Assembly (NCBI GenBank): GCA_016874035.1
Contig: VGVM01000010.1
Span: forward strand, 1 to 55,367
Origin: Gemmatimonadota bacterium
GTDB lineage: Bacteria > Gemmatimonadota > Gemmatimonadetes > Gemmatimonadales > Gemmatimonadaceae
Reading direction: 5' to 3'
Length of the DNA stretch: 55,367 nucleotides
Under the pieces are notes generated by a model, which saw nothing but the letters and a program-made list of their open reading frames with translations, searched no databases and was not told where the DNA came from. Positions 46,417-53,389 of this stretch are shown one piece after another. Position numbers and translations under genes: made by a program. The stretch's first letter is position 1; each line of letters opens with the position of its first letter.

Positions 46417-47370
46417 ATGATGGCGCCTCCGAAGGGCCCGACGGCGAAGATTTGGCGTGACGGTACGCTGGTGGACTGGGCGGACGCGAGTATCCACGTC
46501 CTCAGCCATGTCGTGCACTATGGCTCCGGCGTTTTCGAGGGGATGCGGAGTTACGCGACCCCGACCGGGGGCGCCGTCTTCCGGCTGCAGGACCACATGC
46601 ATCGCCTGCACGATTCGGCGAGCATCTACGAGCTCGACCTCAAGTGGACCGTCGAGGAGCTGTGCCAGGCGACCGTGGACACGCTCGTCGCCAACGACTT
46701 GGCCCACTGCTACCTGCGTCCGCTCGTGATTCGCACGGGCCAGACCATGGGGATCTACGGACAGCAGGCGGCCGTGGAGACCTTCATCATTTGCTGGGAG
46801 TGGGGCGAGACGCTCGGCCACGGCAATGACGGCGGCGCACACGTCTGCGTGTCGAGTTGGCGCCGTGCGGCGCCGAACACCTTCCCGGCCATGGCCAAGG
46901 CGAGCGGCAACTACCTGAACGCACAGCTTGGGAAGCTCGAGTCGAAGCGCAACGGATACGACGAATCCATCATGCTCGACGTCGCGGGCAACGTCGCCGA
47001 AGGGACGGGCCAGAACCTCTTCCTGGTGTACCAGGGCGAGCTGGTGACGTCGCCGTTCACGGCCGGGATCCTGCACGGCATCACGCGCGATTCGATCATC
47101 CGCATGGCGCGCGACATGGGGATCGGCATTCGCGAGATGGAAATCCCCCGCGAAATGCTCTACCTCGTGGACGAGGCGTTCTTCTGCGGCACCGCCGCCG
47201 AAGTCACGCCCGTGCTGTCGGTTGACCGTCACCTGCTGGGCGACGGCACGCCGGGCCCGGTGACCACGCGCATTCGCAGCGCCTTCATGTCGCTCGTCAC
47301 CGGGCGGGCGCCCGATCCGCACAAATGGCTGACGCACGTTCCCGTCACGGCAGGGGCCGGCGCCAAGTGA
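46417..47370 (+). CDS. ilvE: branched-chain amino acid aminotransferase
   Basis: A 317-residue fold-type IV PLP enzyme that transaminates Leu, Ile and Val with 2-oxoglutarate. Motifs are IWRDGTLVDWADASIHVLSH, GSGVFEGMRSY, the catalytic Lys in AKASGNYLNAQL, GYDESIMLD, GNVAEGTGQNLF, FTAGILHGITRDSI and FFCGTAAEVTPV. Length is normal. It carries GGGAG upstream and overlaps the HNH gene by 4 nt (GTGA). Confidence 0.96.
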   Translation: MMAPPKGPTAKIWRDGTLVDWADASIHVLSHVVHYGSGVFEGMRSYATPTGGAVFRLQDHMHRLHDSASIYELDLKWTVEELCQATVDTLVANDLAHCYLRPLVIRTGQTMGIYGQQAAVETFIICWEWGETLGHGNDGGAHVCVSSWRRAAPNTFPAMAKASGNYLNAQLGKLESKRNGYDESIMLDVAGNVAEGTGQNLFLVYQGELVTSPFTAGILHGITRDSIIRMARDMGIGIREMEIPREMLYLVDEAFFCGTAAEVTPVLSVDRHLLGDGTPGPVTTRIRSAFMSLVTGRAPDPHKWLTHVPVTAGAGAK

Positions 47371-47954
47371 CGATCGGCTGCCTGGCGCTCAACTCATCGT
47401 TCGAGCCGTTAACGCTCGTTCCGCTGCGGCGCGCGCTGCGCCTGGTGATCGACGGCAAGGCGGAGATCGTCGAGGCCGACGGCGAAGCGGTCGTCAAGTC
47501 GGCGCGCCAGTCCTTCCCGCGCCCGATGGTGATCCGGCTCAATCGTTTCATCCACGTGCCGCGTCGGTTCCGCCGTCAGGTCACCAACACCTTCCTGTTC
47601 GCGCGCGACGCCTACACCTGCCAATACTGCGGGCGGACCGCGACGCAGCTGCGGATTCGCGAGTCGCTCACGCGTGATCACGTCGTCCCGCTGTCGCGCG
47701 GCGGCACCAATGCGTGGACGAACGTCGTCACGGCCTGCAGCGGGTGCAACACGCGGAAGGCGCACCACCTGCCCGACGAGATCGGGATGCACCTGTTGCA
47801 CACCCCGGTCGAACCGCATTTCGTGCACCTCTCGTGGGCGGTGCGCCGACTGACGCCGATCCAGACCAAGTACATCCGGATGTTTTACGGCGTTGGCGTG
47901 TTGCAGCAGATCGAATCGCTCGAGCAGCGCCGACCGGCGAGCCGTCGCGCCTGA
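47367..47954 (+). CDS. HNH endonuclease
   Basis: A 195-residue protein with an HNH/zinc-finger nuclease domain: zinc Cys pairs YTCQYCG and ACSGCNTRK frame the catalytic TRDHVVPLSRGG. The N-terminal region (LALNSSFEPLTLVPLRRAL, FIHVPRRFRRQ) is conserved in a family of stand-alone HNH proteins found in many bacteria. It is not obviously linked to a phage or restriction system here. Start GTG 47367 overlaps the ilvE stop by 4 nt. Terminates inside a hairpin loop at 47946-47960. Confidence 0.92.
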   Translation: MTIGCLALNSSFEPLTLVPLRRALRLVIDGKAEIVEADGEAVVKSARQSFPRPMVIRLNRFIHVPRRFRRQVTNTFLFARDAYTCQYCGRTATQLRIRESLTRDHVVPLSRGGTNAWTNVVTACSGCNTRKAHHLPDEIGMHLLHTPVEPHFVHLSWAVRRLTPIQTKYIRMFYGVGVLQQIESLEQRRPASRRA

Positions 47955-48013: not shown

Positions 48014-48733
48014 TTACGGCACGCGGAATCGCGGCGACTGCGCGTCATACCCTCGTTGCTCGCCGCCCAGCAGGCGCGAGGCGACCGTGCGGACGCCCCG
48101 GACGAGGAATGACGCCGGGTTGCTCTTGCCGGTGAGCACGGGGCGCACTTCGCCTTGCAGCCACCGGCCGACTTCGTCGAGGTCACGCTCGGACAGCACC
48201 TCCACCCGAAGCGTGGCTTCGTAGTACTGCGTCCGCGACATCGGCCGTGCCGCGATCGGGGCGATCGTCGGCCGGGCGACGGCACGCTCGGCATCCGCCA
48301 GCTGGGCAAACTTCCCGAGTGATTGCACCCGGTCGTCCAGCACGTGTACCACCTCGTACACGCGCTCGGCCGGCAAGTACCGGACGCCGGCGTCGAACTC
48401 CGCGACGCCTTCCAGCTGGTCAAAGAACCGGCCCTCCGACGAGAGCTCGACGCGGAAGTGAAACCGCGCGGGAAACCCCGCCAGCAGGAGTTCGCTCATG
48501 CGCGCCCCGCTGAGCATACCCGTCGCCCGCACGGTCGGACCGCGGCGCGTGAGTAGCGAGTCCGGCGGCAGGTCGAGTGTCAGGCGCGGACGGGAGTCGG
48601 CCGACGCCGACGGCGGCGCCGTTTGCTGCGCGGCAACAGGCGATGCGACACCCGGCAACGCGACGGCCGCGTACACGAGCGCGTATGCGCGCGCGTACGC
48701 GGCCAGGCGTTCGGTCAAACGCAGCGCCGCCAC
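48014..48733 (-). CDS. DUF4390-like secreted protein
   Basis: A 239-residue protein with a long signal peptide (1-36, ending SPVAAQ) containing Tyr-Ala repeats (AAYARAYALVYAAVA). The remainder resembles DUF4390: MLSGARMSELLLAGFPARFHFRVELSSE and VEVLSERDLDEVGRWL. The function of the family is unknown, but it is frequently next to NtrY-like kinases. Here it follows the Omp85-like gene after 5 nt, with the NtrY/NtrX pair upstream, which fits that neighbourhood. GTG start at 48733. Confidence 0.8.
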   Translation of the reverse strand: MAALRLTERLAAYARAYALVYAAVALPGVASPVAAQQTAPPSASADSRPRLTLDLPPDSLLTRRGPTVRATGMLSGARMSELLLAGFPARFHFRVELSSEGRFFDQLEGVAEFDAGVRYLPAERVYEVVHVLDDRVQSLGKFAQLADAERAVARPTIAPIAARPMSRTQYYEATLRVEVLSERDLDEVGRWLQGEVRPVLTGKSNPASFLVRGVRTVASRLLGGEQRGYDAQSPRFRVP

Positions 48734-48738
48734 GCGCG

Positions 48739-50472
48739 CTAGAACCGCCGCTGCAAGCGCAGGATGAACCGCACGGGCGAGTCATCGCGGTCCAGCGCCT
48801 TGGCCCAATACAGGCCCAGCTCGCCGAAGTCCACGCCAGCGCCGACGTCCGTGCGGTACGACGAGAACGGCGGCAGCGCGCCGCGTTCGTAGAACATCTC
48901 CGGTCGAGCCGCGTTGGCCGGCCCGACCATCCAGCCGCGACCCGCATCGGCGAAAAGGACCCATGCAGTCCGTCCGTTGAAGCCCGGACGCCACCAGTCG
49001 TCGTCCTGATCGTTCCGGACACCATCAAACAGGAAGCTCGACCGCAGCTCGGCCTGAGCCAGGATCACGCGGTCACACTGGGCCGGCGTCCCGGCCTGGA
49101 TGATCGTGGTCGTGCAGCTCAGGCGGTCCCGCCCGGGTTCTTCGCCGCGAAAATCGTACCCCGGCAGCGTACCGGCGCCACCAACGCCGAGCCGTCGCTG
49201 CGTCGGCAGCGGGTCGCCCGCGACCCAGCCGCCGCCCGCCACGCGAAGCGCCAGCGCCATGCCCGGCGCCAGGCGGTTGTAGCGACGCACGTCGAGGAAC
49301 GCGCGCGAATACCACACGGGCTCCGGCTGGAGCGGAACGATGGGAAGGATCGGCGCTCCAAGTCTCGTCAAACGGCCGCCGCCCTGCTCGAGGTCCGCGG
49401 CGATGTACCAGGCGCCCCACGGCGAGCGAACACGATCCCGCGTGTCCAGCCGCAGCCGCGTGCTGAGCAGGTGCACCGACCCGACGTCAAACGAGGGGTT
49501 CGGTCGCCAGTTGCGATCGCCTCGTGAGAACGACCACGGATCGCGGGCCTCGCGGTTCGCCCACTGCTCGTCGCTGAGGGCGATCGTCACGTCAGCGCCG
49601 CGCCCGGCCACGAACCGGGCGAACACTTCGCCGCCGTGTCGCGAGTAGTAGTCACGGAAGTCGCGATGGAGCAGTGCGGCGCCAAGCCCGACCTCCCCTT
49701 CGCCCAGCTGCCAGGTCTCCGTCGGTTGCACGACATCGAACGCGCGGGCGCCGACGGCGACGCCGACGCGCCGTCCGAACAGCACCTCGGCCTTCGCGTT
49801 GTGTCCGATCGTCGCGTTGTCCCATTGCATCGGTGGAGCCGTGCGGCCCACCCCGAACAACTCCAGGTTCACCGCGCCGAACGGCGTCGGCCGCATCACG
49901 CGCGGTCCGGCGACGAACGACCAGCCTTCCACCCGGTTATACGTCCGCGAGGCGACGTAGAGGAACTCCTGGCTTCCGACCGCGTTCCGCCAGTCGCGCA
50001 CGCGCTTCCTCGCACTCCACCATCCGTCGTCATACGTCGGCTCACCTTCGGGATCCAGCCGCACGTCATCGATGCGGTAGCGCATGAGCTCGGCCTGTTG
50101 CGCCAGCTCGCCGGTCAGCGTCGCCTGGTCTATTCCGGCGATGTTCCCACCGACGATGACCAGGTCGCGCTCGATGCGCGCGCCCGGCGCCAGGCGCACG
50201 TCCGCGTTGATCGCTGCCAGCGACCCGCGGATCGTCCCGGCCACCGTGACCGGCCCGTTGAGGACGGCGACAGAGCCGTCAATCACCTCGCCGGCCGGCA
50301 GTTCAAATGCGCCGTTCACTTGTCGCGTCGTTGCGCCGTTCCAGATGTTTGCGGCGCGAACCGCGATCGCCGTGGGTTGGTCGCGGCCGGACCGCTGCGC
50401 GGACACCTGGCCCGCGGCAAGTGCAAGGGCCAGGCACGCGGTGGCGGTGGTTGGGAAGATGCGTGGGGTCAC
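48739..50472 (-). CDS. Omp85-like barrel with N-terminal bactofilin-like domain
   Basis: A 577-residue exported protein (signal peptide about 1-25, QVSA-Q). Residues about 50-115 look like a right-handed beta-helix of the bactofilin type (VIDGSVAVLNGPVTVAGTIR, SLAAINADVRLAPGARIERD). From about 185 to the end is a beta-barrel with BamA/Omp85-like surface repeats, a GTLPGYDFRGEE segment similar to the VRGF/Y motif, and a terminal Phe (LQRRF) typical of outer-membrane insertion. GTG 50472 has AGGAG ten bases upstream. Omp85 proteins insert or secrete proteins; this one lacks visible POTRA domains. Function is not assigned. Confidence 0.8.
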   Translation of the reverse strand: MTPRIFPTTATACLALALAAGQVSAQRSGRDQPTAIAVRAANIWNGATTRQVNGAFELPAGEVIDGSVAVLNGPVTVAGTIRGSLAAINADVRLAPGARIERDLVIVGGNIAGIDQATLTGELAQQAELMRYRIDDVRLDPEGEPTYDDGWWSARKRVRDWRNAVGSQEFLYVASRTYNRVEGWSFVAGPRVMRPTPFGAVNLELFGVGRTAPPMQWDNATIGHNAKAEVLFGRRVGVAVGARAFDVVQPTETWQLGEGEVGLGAALLHRDFRDYYSRHGGEVFARFVAGRGADVTIALSDEQWANREARDPWSFSRGDRNWRPNPSFDVGSVHLLSTRLRLDTRDRVRSPWGAWYIAADLEQGGGRLTRLGAPILPIVPLQPEPVWYSRAFLDVRRYNRLAPGMALALRVAGGGWVAGDPLPTQRRLGVGGAGTLPGYDFRGEEPGRDRLSCTTTIIQAGTPAQCDRVILAQAELRSSFLFDGVRNDQDDDWWRPGFNGRTAWVLFADAGRGWMVGPANAARPEMFYERGALPPFSSYRTDVGAGVDFGELGLYWAKALDRDDSPVRFILRLQRRF

Positions 50473-50696
50473 TGGGATGCGCTCCTGTTAGGGCTGGTCG
50501 CCCGCTTCCGAAGGCATGATGCGTGCCGCGTAATGCCGTTTCCCGCTAAGTCCATGCGCGGCACGCACATCGTTGCCACGCCCGCATGTCGCGCAGGCCC
50601 AACGCCGTCCCTCGCCTTGAGGGCATCGTAGGAGAATCGCACACGCCTGTGTCATTTGTACCCTCGCCCGAAAAATATGTGGCCGGGCACCCCGGC
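50473..50696 (-). other. 224-nt spacer between the regulator and the Omp85-like gene
   Basis: Besides the terminator, the spacer has no ORF I trust. A TATTTTTC and a GGTACAAATG sit just after the terminator hairpin on the reverse strand as possible start elements for the Omp85-like gene. No clear -24/-12 sigma54 promoter (TGGCAC-N5-TTGC) is seen. Confidence 0.4.
50671..50696 (-). terminator. intrinsic terminator after the sigma54-type regulator
   Basis: On the reverse strand GCCGGG-GTG-CCCGGC is followed by CACATATTTTT. It begins immediately after the stop codon (50697-50699) of the regulator. Confidence 0.78.
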
Positions 50697-52073
50697 TCAG
50701 GCGCCGATAATGCCAAGTCGTTTCATGCGCCGATACAGGTTCGGCCGGTCGGTCTGGAGGCGACGTGCGGCATCCGCCACAACCCCCTGCGCCGCGGAGA
50801 GCGCTCGCGTGATCAGGAGGCGCTCGTAGTCATCGAGCGCCGAGCTCAATGGCGGAACCGTTCCAGCCGCCGGCGCCGCGCTCGGCAGCGCGTCGCGATC
50901 CGGCTCGCCGGTCATGGGCAGCACCGACGCGACGTGCTCGGCGAGCACCTCGCGTCCGCTGCAGAGGATACCCAGCCGTTCGACGATGTTGGCCAGCTCT
51001 CGCACGTTGCCGGGCCACCGGTGTCGCGCGAGCTGGTCTATGGCGGCATCGCTCCACCGCGCGGCCGGCTGACCGGACTTGCGGCGCATCTGCTCGACGA
51101 AATGGCGCACGAGCAAGGGGACATCGCCGGGCCGCTCGCGGAGCGGGATGACGTGCACCGGCAGCACGTTCAGCCGGAAGAACAGGTCTTCACGGAACGA
51201 GCCGTCACGAACCGCGCGCGTGAGGTCGCGGTTGGTCGCGGCAATGATCCGCACGTCAACCCTGATCGGCTTCCCGCCTCCAACACGCTCGATCTCGCGA
51301 GCTTCGATGGCGCGGAGCAGCTTGGCCTGCGCTTCCGCGCCGAGGTCCCCGACCTCATCGAGGAGCAACGTGCCGGTGTGGGCCAGCTCGAACCGGCCGA
51401 TCCGCCGCTCGGTGGCGCCGGTGAACGCCCCTCGCTCGTGGCCGAACATCTCGCTCTCGACCAGGTCGCGCGGGATCGCCGCACAGTTCACGCGGACGAA
51501 CGGCTTGTCGCGCCGCGCGCTTCCGGCGTGGATGGCGGCAGCCACCAATTCCTTGCCCGTCCCGCTCTCGCCCGTGATCAACACGCGCGAATCGGTCGGC
51601 GCGATCCGGGCGATCAGGGCCCGCAGTTCGTCCATCGCAGGGCTCACGCCGACAAACTGACCCGTCATGCCCAGGTCGGCGCGGAGCGCGGTGCGCTCGC
51701 GGCGCGCCATCCGCAGTTCCAGCGCGCTCGCGATCGCGACCACCACGCCGTCGGGCGTGAGCGGCTTTTCCAGGAAGTTGATCGCACCGAGGCGCGTCGC
51801 CTTCACGGCGTCGGTCAGGCCGGCGCGCCCGCTCATCATGATCACCGGCAGGTCCGGAAACCGCTCCCGAAGCCGCTCGAGCACCGCCATGCCGTCAAGC
51901 GCGCCCGGGATCATCAAGTCCAGCAAGGCGACGTCGGGCTCGGAATCGATCGCCGTCATCACGCCGGATGCGCCATCGGCGGCATCGCGCACTTCGTAGC
52001 CCTCGCCCGCCAACAGCGCGCCTACCATGCGGCGCACATTGGCTTCGTCGTCAACGATCAATACGGATGGCAT
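50697..52073 (-). CDS. sigma54-dependent NtrC/NtrX-like response regulator
   Basis: A 458-residue activator with receiver (D52 in LLDLMIPGALDG), AAA+ domain (Walker A GESGTGKE, complete GAFTGA in GHERGAFTGATER, Walker B TLLLDEVGDL, FREDLFFRLNV) and a Fis-type helix-turn-helix (VVADAARRLQTDRPNLYRRMKRL). All elements for sigma54 activation are present, unlike the regulator at 3241-4590. Its kinase is the NtrY-like protein encoded upstream, with the 34-residue ORF in between. Downstream genes for envelope proteins may be targets, but no binding site is shown. Confidence 0.95.
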   Translation of the reverse strand: MPSVLIVDDEANVRRMVGALLAGEGYEVRDAADGASGVMTAIDSEPDVALLDLMIPGALDGMAVLERLRERFPDLPVIMMSGRAGLTDAVKATRLGAINFLEKPLTPDGVVVAIASALELRMARRERTALRADLGMTGQFVGVSPAMDELRALIARIAPTDSRVLITGESGTGKELVAAAIHAGSARRDKPFVRVNCAAIPRDLVESEMFGHERGAFTGATERRIGRFELAHTGTLLLDEVGDLGAEAQAKLLRAIEAREIERVGGGKPIRVDVRIIAATNRDLTRAVRDGSFREDLFFRLNVLPVHVIPLRERPGDVPLLVRHFVEQMRRKSGQPAARWSDAAIDQLARHRWPGNVRELANIVERLGILCSGREVLAEHVASVLPMTGEPDRDALPSAAPAAGTVPPLSSALDDYERLLITRALSAAQGVVADAARRLQTDRPNLYRRMKRLGIIGA

Positions 52074-52082
52074 GCGATCCGC

Positions 52083-52187
52083 CTAACGTTTCGGCGGCGC
52101 CACGCGGGCGTTGATGGCTTCGACCGTGCGTTCGATTCGTTCGAGCCGTTCCGTCGCGTCGGTGGCAGGCTGTAGTCCGGCCGTCAT
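52083..52187 (-). CDS. micro-ORF (34 aa) between kinase and regulator genes
   Basis: ATG 52187 overlaps the kinase stop by 4 nt (ATGA), and the TAG at 52083-52085 lies 9 nt before the regulator start. The peptide, beginning MTAGLQPATDATERLERIER, ends TVEAINARVAPPKR; the middle is an amphipathic helix of heptad type. Tight overlap, same strand and a plausible helix support translation, either as a coupling peptide or a small binding partner. I know of no named family. Confidence 0.6.
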   Translation of the reverse strand: MTAGLQPATDATERLERIERTVEAINARVAPPKR

Positions 52188-53389
52188 TCGCGCTCCAGGT
52201 GCGTCGCGGCGGGGAGCACGAGCCGAAACTCGGCGCCGCCGCCAGTGGGGTTATGGGCGGAGACAGTCCCGCCGTGCGCTTCTATTGTTTGTTTGACAAT
52301 CGCAAGGCCCAATCCGGTTCCCCCCGGCTTCCCGGTCACATACGGGTCCCAGATTGCCGTGAGTTTCGCCCCGTCCAGTCCGGGACCGTTGTCGCGGATG
52401 ACGATGACCGCCGCTCCCGAAACCGGGTCACGTGAGGCCTCCACCGTAATGGCGACAGTCGGCCCGCCCGCCTCGAGCGCATTCTGCAGCACGTTACCGA
52501 TCGCGCGCCCGAGCGCGTCCGCCTGGCCGCTCACCGGGGGGACTCCCGCTTCGACACGCACGGAGCACCGTGTGGCGCCCGGCAGCGCCGCACGGACGGC
52601 TGAATCCAGCAGTTCACGCACGTCGAGCGCGACGCGCGGGCCTTCGGGCAGTCGCCCAAACTGGGCGAAGCTCCGCGCCATTTGGTCGAGGCGGGCCGAT
52701 TCGGTTCCGATCACGTCCACGGCGTCCGCGAGTTCGGGCGCGACCCGACCGCGCAGCCGGTCCACGGCGAATCGAATCGGGGTCAACGGGTTCTTCAGTT
52801 CGTGCGCCACTTGGCGCGCGGTTTCCCGCATCGCGGAGAGCCGCTGTGCCTCGAGCGCTGCGGCCCGCCCGCGCTCGATTTCGTCCGACATGCGTGCCAT
52901 GCCGGCGCGAAGCGCGCCAAACTCGGGCGCCCCTTTCGCCGCTGTGGTCGGAAGCGGCTCCCGCCGTGCGATGCGCGCGGTCCAGTCGAGCAGTTCGTCA
53001 ACCGGCCGGCTCAGCTGTCGGCTCAGGTGACCGGCCACTCGCGTTGCGAGCAGCGCCAGGATGATCACCACCAGCAGGCCCGTCAGGACGAGGAGCGTCG
53101 GCGCCCGCTGCGCAACGAATGCGAACTGGCGAGCGCGGGTCTCGGCGGTCGCGACGATCCGGGCATGCGTTTCGACGGCTGCCGAGTCTGCCGCAGTCCG
53201 GGCGTTGCGGCGTGCCACTGAGAGCGCCGCCTCGGACGACCCAGCCACGGAATCCCAGGCCGCCTCTGCCGACACCAAGGGAACGAACTTGGTCACGGCC
53301 ACGCCCCAAGCCCCCGTCAGGATCGCCGCGGGTACCGCCGCAAAGAGCGTGAGAATGACGAAAAGTCGGGTCTGGAAGCGCATCGCCAT
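52184..53389 (-). CDS. NtrY-like sensor histidine kinase
   Basis: A 401-residue membrane kinase: helix 1 about 9-34 and helix 2 about 98-118 flank a short periplasmic, Ala-rich sensor; HAMP about 115-170; HisKA with H196 in RQVAHELKNPLTP; HATPase with NVLQNALEAG, DNGPGLDG and GTGLGLAIVKQ. The HisKA motif is of the NtrY/PilS type, matching the sigma54 regulator downstream. The proposed start is ATG 53389, without a Shine-Dalgarno site; TATCTTTT sits 38 nt upstream. Confidence 0.93.
   Translation of the reverse strand: MAMRFQTRLFVILTLFAAVPAAILTGAWGVAVTKFVPLVSAEAAWDSVAGSSEAALSVARRNARTAADSAAVETHARIVATAETRARQFAFVAQRAPTLLVLTGLLVVIILALLATRVAGHLSRQLSRPVDELLDWTARIARREPLPTTAAKGAPEFGALRAGMARMSDEIERGRAAALEAQRLSAMRETARQVAHELKNPLTPIRFAVDRLRGRVAPELADAVDVIGTESARLDQMARSFAQFGRLPEGPRVALDVRELLDSAVRAALPGATRCSVRVEAGVPPVSGQADALGRAIGNVLQNALEAGGPTVAITVEASRDPVSGAAVIVIRDNGPGLDGAKLTAIWDPYVTGKPGGTGLGLAIVKQTIEAHGGTVSAHNPTGGGAEFRLVLPAATHLERE

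Follow-up and report, generated by a model that had tools for sequence, protein, structure and literature searches.

A POTRA-less Omp85-type protein with a predicted bactofilin-like beta-helix, encoded in a conserved NtrYX/PlrP-type gene set of Gemmatimonadota

In the window, that is, the whole stretch of 55,367 nucleotides analysed here (contig VGVM01000010.1 of a Gemmatimonadota bacterium), we found a gene whose product is predicted to be a POTRA-less member of the Omp85 superfamily, with an apparently capped bactofilin-fold beta-helix as its periplasmic part. As far as the architecture goes, this assignment is well supported by the structural models. The gene lies in a conserved set with a histidine kinase, a response regulator and a DUF4390 (PlrP-like) protein, and given such neighbours, which sense, switch genes and signal in the periplasm, the barrel may inform the cell of the condition of its outer membrane. 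Domain architecture and gene linkage are well supported by computation, which also supports a sigma-54-type site before the barrel; our confidence in architecture and linkage is far above that in the mechanism. A preliminary description of this DNA missed the kinase-regulator-barrel-DUF4390/PlrP cluster, the most telling hint of function, as well as the altered L6 motif of the barrel.

The open reading frame 48739-50472, on the minus strand, encodes 577 aa from a GTG start codon. Among 61 genomes, namely the source genome and 60 relatives, 55 matched it at E<=0.001 and 54 did so over the barrel; in G049 the match was via the N-terminal repeat only and left the barrel uncovered, and no match at this threshold was obtained in G017, G025, G043, G047, G051 and G059. 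Orthologues over the barrel in 54 of the 61 genomes indicated that this is a real gene, and the idea of a spurious frame was rejected since there are too many of them. We also rejected the possibility that it is the genome's BamA, as six other Omp85-like regions are present, two of them with both VRGF and FxDxG. Some orthologues (in G004, G011, G074, G103 and G108) were split over two frames or pieces, through either sequencing error or real decay.

Used alone, the window protein gave nothing above the cut-off in Pfam, the best row, an E1-E2 ATPase over the helix, being taken as chance; phmmer against PDB sequences returned only an antifreeze beta-solenoid (E 0.3), and a profile-free search of the genome contigs returned no match. 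We worked with several alignments. A1 contains 33 of 50 loci, those left after removal of near-duplicates and of truncated or helix-less sequences, and a search of genome contigs with it provided the best 80 loci of 277 relatives. Nearly all of these are recorded as Gemmatimonadota, and they over-represent full-length proteins because they were picked by best match. A2 is the window protein plus 74 of 80 loci (L074, L079, L104, L107 and L133 were excluded as partial, and L109 as containing N); its N-terminal portion makes up A3. A4 is the window protein plus 36 relatives, about every second DUF4390-matching locus with a few odd starts excluded. A scan of the phylum scored 228 of 249, a figure that contains N-terminal-only paralogue matches and is not a count of the barrel protein.

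The chain opens with a hydrophobic segment ending in VSA followed by Q, a predicted signal peptide, and A25-Q26 is conserved in 61 of the 75 A2 rows; the product is presumably exported and inserted into the outer membrane. AlphaFold, run with the 75 sequences of A2, gave a model with a mean pLDDT of 85.7 and a pTM of 0.73, in which residues ~46-126 form regular short strands at pLDDT >90. Folded alone, residues 31-146 again gave regular coils (pLDDT 95.8, pTM 0.89). The best VIA match of the isolated helix was the Thermus bactofilin 6ria, with a Z of 8.3 and an rmsd of 2.2 A over 72 residues at 25% identity, and BacA (2n3d) reached a Z of 7.2. Ice-binding beta-solenoids scored Z 6-7, so that the margin by which the fold can be called bactofilin-like is modest. 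Foldseek with the helix alone gave nothing at E<=0.001 and no bactofilin among the 50 matches listed. Of the 75 N-terminal domains taken in isolation, 36 matched the Pfam Bactofilin family (PF04519) at E<=0.01, the best at 1.8e-6; the window protein itself did not match it, and POTRA was matched in none of the Pfam scans.

Collectively, these data bear on what the preliminary description had proposed, namely a bactofilin-like repeat at residues 50-115, after a signal peptide and before an Omp85-like barrel, with POTRA domains missing. The repeat, its position and the missing POTRA domains were all recovered; the extent was not, the predicted coils being longer. It had also been envisaged that the repeats might be ordinary barrel-plug strands, and the prediction showed them to be a separate beta-helix ahead of strand 1. 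The 48739-50472 product is nevertheless not a bactofilin. We noticed related proteins of other layouts: L051, L054, L055, L056, L057, L060, L064 and L067 are paralogues in which the same exported beta-helix is followed by several hydrophobic segments, likely of the inner membrane, with no barrel, and L053:373-1932, L061:1534-3030, L201 and L203 combine an exported beta-helix with a barrel-like C-terminus that has no Pfam Omp85 match.

Table 1. Positions of the features in the window (residue numbers refer to the barrel protein)
Feature	Coordinates	Strand	Basis
Histidine kinase: two transmembrane segments ~70 residues apart, HAMP, HisKA, HATPase	52184..53389	-	
NtrC/NtrX-type response regulator: receiver, sigma-54 AAA+ with GAFTGA, Fis-type HTH	50697..52073	-	
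Terminator-like stem-loop just after the regulator gene	50682..50696	-	
Sigma-54 promoter-like site CGGCACGCATCATGCC, 56 bases before the barrel start codon	50513..50528	-	
Whole gene: signal peptide, bactofilin-like beta-helix and 16-strand Omp85-type barrel, 577 aa	48739..50472	-	
Signal peptide, aa 1-25, cleavage expected after VSA	50398..50472	-	sequence; A25-Q26 conservation
Short helix, aa 35-44, ahead of the first coil; probable N-terminal cap	50341..50370	-	
Bactofilin-like beta-helix, aa ~46-126	50095..50337	-	AlphaFold, Pfam, VIA
Linker, aa 127-166: two strands and a low-confidence helix	49975..50094	-	AlphaFold
Omp85-type barrel, 16 strands, aa 167-577, C-terminal Phe	48742..49974	-	
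Loop L6, aa 420-467, between strands 11 and 12: LPGYDFR for (V/I)RG(Y/F); invariant Cys453/Cys466	49072..49215	-	
Strand-13 motif FADAG (FxDxG), aa 507-511	48940..48954	-	motif definition PMC4490367 (excerpt)
DUF4390/PlrP-like protein, with a signal peptide; 5 bp downstream of the barrel gene	48014..48733	-	

After the linker, the model contains exactly 16 strands. The barrel matched Sam50, BamA and TamA with VIA Z values of about 19-22, at ~4-5 A over ~300 residues, and the Pfam Omp85 family matched 21 of the 33 A1 members at E<=0.1 (best 4.9e-10), the value for the window protein alone being 0.15. In the excerpted literature, the Omp85-type membrane barrel is given as the defining feature of the superfamily and the L6 motif as a signature (PMC4104836); an Arg-Asp salt bridge locks (V/I)RG(Y/F) on L6 to (F/G)xDxG on strand 13, and well-studied Omp85 proteins retain the L6 half of this lid lock (PMC4490367). 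Across the 75 A2 rows, the strand-13 pattern was conserved in 62, and RG(Y/F) at the L6 tip in none. Instead, PG stood at the place of the motif in 59 rows, and an arginine five residues past the expected place, R442, was found in every row. In L195, a relative from another class, L6 reads LRGY, which suggests that the rewriting of the loop probably arose within the lineage of the window protein. Incidentally, Cys453 and Cys466 were also present in all 75 rows, and their conservation suggests a disulfide on the outer loop.

The preliminary description had called for a search for proteins of the same architecture, and helix-barrel proteins were indeed found across classes of Gemmatimonadota. 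Helix and barrel co-align in L195 (profile positions 28-364), which lies in another class of the phylum and argues for an old architecture. A quick tree was built from 65 of 66 loci, L238 being dropped as it has no cutting motif. It comprised 55 barrels with the helix and 10 without, and the latter nested inside one family (f1), two changes being needed. A late local gain of the helix was rejected, since it is present in the sampled families f2-f6 and f9 as well as f1 and the helix-less rows are nested in f1. Judging from these sequences, the helix was lost once or twice within one family. The barrel was retained in each case, so the helix is not needed for its persistence, and the helix-less barrels kept the kinase, regulator and DUF4390 genes.

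A peculiar arrangement was seen at L035, L040, L235, L221 and L222, which belong to two branches of the tree, both helix-less. There, the regulator has no stop codon; its frame stays open and, by way of NLYRRM(R/K)RLG, runs on into a segment resembling a signal peptide and then a helix-less barrel (L235 covers only the end of the regulator). The simplest reading of these joined frames is that translation would restart internally, at the ATG of NLYRRM(R/K)RLG; a bolder one is that a polyprotein would be made and cut at the internal signal peptide.

The order of transcription in the window is histidine kinase, response regulator, barrel and DUF4390. The regulator gene was present at 99 of 100 loci, the DUF4390 gene at 95 and the kinase gene at 89, with several of the misses falling at contig ends, and both gene set and order recurred in other families of the class. 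The gap between barrel and DUF4390 had a median of 3 bp and lay within -10..+30 bp in 70 of 76 cases, whereas the one between regulator and barrel was wide and variable; these gaps are approximate because starts were picked by nearness to the expected start. The regulator scored 433.7 bits with the NtrC model and 399.8 bits with the NtrX model, both below the equivalog cut-offs, and is assigned at family level only. For DUF4390, the match in the window (24.7 bits) was below the Pfam cut-off of 27. A chance match was rejected, as 27 of the 37 A4 members matched, with a best E of 3.5e-10.

The gene set does not follow the barrel everywhere. Homologues of f10, in another class, had no kinase, regulator or DUF4390 genes in flanks of roughly 1-1.5 kb, nor did L226, a second copy in G065, within its 6.5 kb. 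In the flanks examined, the architecture is hence not tied to signalling alone. Two further observations concern individual loci. At L079, L082, L083, L085 and L088, one or two small genes lie between kinase and regulator and encode a single hydrophobic segment and a probable coiled coil, with (R/I)SEGQRF(V/T)TKLL-like ends; the same interval in the window is a mere 110 bp gap. L146 has the complete cluster of the Gemmatimonadota type; its record bears the title Candidatus Kuenenia stuttgartiensis and is probably a mislabelled bin.

We then looked at control elements. A sigma-54-like site was defined as GG-N10-GC with at least 8 of 11 bases of the sigma-54 consensus. Such sites were found upstream of the barrel in 38 of 80 loci; the reverse complement had 4, and 100 first-order Markov resamplings averaged 3.8 (maximum 8). 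The genome carries rpoN. The terminator-like stem-loop after the regulator is weak, since two such sites were found in the region and shuffles yielded 3.1.

What might these components do together? The simplest reading is that kinase, regulator, helix-barrel protein and PlrP make up an envelope-response module that is represented in every compartment; NtrYX itself, to go by the title of one study (PMC7240162), reportedly regulates the cell envelope. A more specific version, in which the barrel is the outer-membrane arm of an NtrYX/PlrP-type module, with the helix docking PlrP and with sigma-54 feedback, falls a little short of an even chance in our estimation. The signal peptide would export the chain, and the C-terminal barrel would fold into the outer membrane. 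The beta-helix would remain in the periplasm, where the co-expressed DUF4390 protein would dock on it; this protein would set the kinase/phosphatase balance of the histidine kinase. Phosphorylated regulator and sigma-54 would then transcribe the barrel-PlrP unit and close the feedback loop, and the barrel would report on the outer membrane, or repair it. Some observations count against parts of this scheme, among them the f10 and L226 flanks and the low DUF4390 score in the window described above. Since 10 of 65 barrels have lost the helix and retained the gene set, some lineages at least must manage without docking on it. About half of the upstream regions have no sigma-54-like site. PlrP is thought to act via the PDC domain of the kinase (excerpt of PMC13001219), and the kinase loop in the window, at ~70 aa, is short.

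The main competitor is that the protein is a pure effector, that is, an accessory factor for assembling proteins or lipids in the outer membrane, induced by the two-component system under envelope stress, with the helix as a platform substituting for POTRA and with no signalling back. The Omp85 fold, the conservation of FxDxG (62 of 75 rows) and the barrel's own sigma-54-type promoter are in its favour, as are the assembly roles that Heinz and Lithgow propose, in the excerpted text, for POTRA-less and other Omp85 types (PMC4104836). However, the L6 motif conserved in well-studied Omp85 proteins (PMC4490367, excerpt) is absent in 75 of 75 rows, and the coupling to the signalling protein PlrP is tighter than to the regulator. 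We regard this possibility as unlikely, though one to be reckoned with. The barrel may inform PlrP, as a sensor, or may be induced only, as an effector, and we lean towards a partner of PlrP. At the other extreme, the system might be a four-component trans-envelope signalling chain in which the barrel would sense the membrane, the helix would relay to PlrP and PlrP would set the NtrYX-type kinase, the joined frames providing one gene for activator and sensor; this we consider rather unlikely.

The remaining alternatives give the helix quite different tasks. The preliminary description had thought of a new type of plug or receptor; in such a case the helix would occupy or gate the pore and the barrel would bind an external ligand. 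The long L6 with its invariant cysteine pair and the presence of a periplasmic domain ahead of strand 1 would suit such a role, but the model shows the helix as a separate domain and so does not sustain the plug, 10 of 65 barrels do without the helix, and the receptor drew no direct evidence, of ligand or otherwise. We find this improbable. It is more doubtful still that the helices assemble, by end-to-end stacking as in bactofilin filaments, into a periplasmic skeleton that joins the barrels in arrays: the bactofilin fold would invite this, yet stacking needs free ends, and the helix before the first coil and the extra strands after the last resemble end caps in the model. Least likely of all, the helix might be a passenger that reaches the cell surface by way of its own barrel, as proposed for the patatin domain of PlpD. 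Omp85 fusion proteins with proposed translocation do exist (PMC4104836, excerpt), but the coupling to periplasmic PlrP speaks against this, and the sequence bears no sign of release or surface exposure.

The favoured reading, of a barrel partnered with PlrP, can be set against known systems. With the Omp85/TpsB proteins (BamA, TamA, Sam50, PlpD and the 'noNterm' and 'WD40' types), the window protein shares the 16-strand barrel, the strand-13 FxDxG and the C-terminal Phe; it differs by LPGYDFR in place of (V/I)RG(Y/F) on L6 and, unlike the BamA, TamA and TpsB subfamilies with their one or more POTRA, by a beta-helix instead of POTRA. Heinz and Lithgow (2014, PMC4104836) list ten Omp85 architectures, including POTRA-less types and types with a beta-propeller N-terminus; lack of POTRA does not bar a protein from the superfamily. 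In the excerpted text, none of the ten is described as having a beta-helix at its N-terminus. The beta-helix would thus join the domains able to replace POTRA on an Omp85 barrel. DUF5686 (PF18939) resembles the barrel in relatives (L196 at E 6.7e-6; 2 of 33 A1 rows) and does not match the window protein. DUF5686 proteins carry a different N-terminal beta domain. The literature that we searched had no paper mentioning DUF5686, none mentioning bactofilin together with Omp85, and only two mentioning DUF4390.

With bactofilins (PF04519; 6ria, 2n3d), the helix shares its fold; the sequence profile matched, weakly, some of the isolated domains. Bactofilins are cytosolic and stand-alone, whereas the window protein has a predicted signal peptide and a fused barrel and is apparently capped at both ends, which would place a bactofilin-type fold in the periplasm. 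The genome has its own ordinary stand-alone bactofilin (L182, G000:C2 around 47241-47528), directly after a gene that we take to be ParB-like by its sequence. Excerpts of PMC12448750 describe bactofilins as polymers on the cytoplasmic face, with ~3.2% of homologues having N-terminal transmembrane helices, and make no mention of a signal peptide or the outer membrane; this agrees with the preliminary description, which had called them cytosolic in all well-studied cases.

The closest known counterpart of the gene set is the PlrP-PlrS-PlrR/NtrYX system of Bordetella and other beta- and gamma-proteobacteria (PMC13001219, here in excerpt), with which it shares a DUF4390 protein with a signal peptide beside an NtrYX-type kinase and regulator. 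In that source, DUF4390 corresponds to PlrP, which acts in the periplasm as the third component of NtrYX systems; its control of the kinase/phosphatase balance has genetic evidence in Bordetella, and the taxa named are proteobacterial; the excerpt does not mention Gemmatimonadota, the outer membrane or a barrel, nor does the excerpted literature describe the input signal of PlrP. The regulator in the window has an AAA+ domain, which beta-proteobacterial NtrX does not (PMC13001219). The Gemmatimonadota cluster differs above all by an outer-membrane barrel gene between regulator and DUF4390, linking PlrP to a specific outer-membrane protein, and what NtrYX/PlrP systems sense thereby becomes directly testable.
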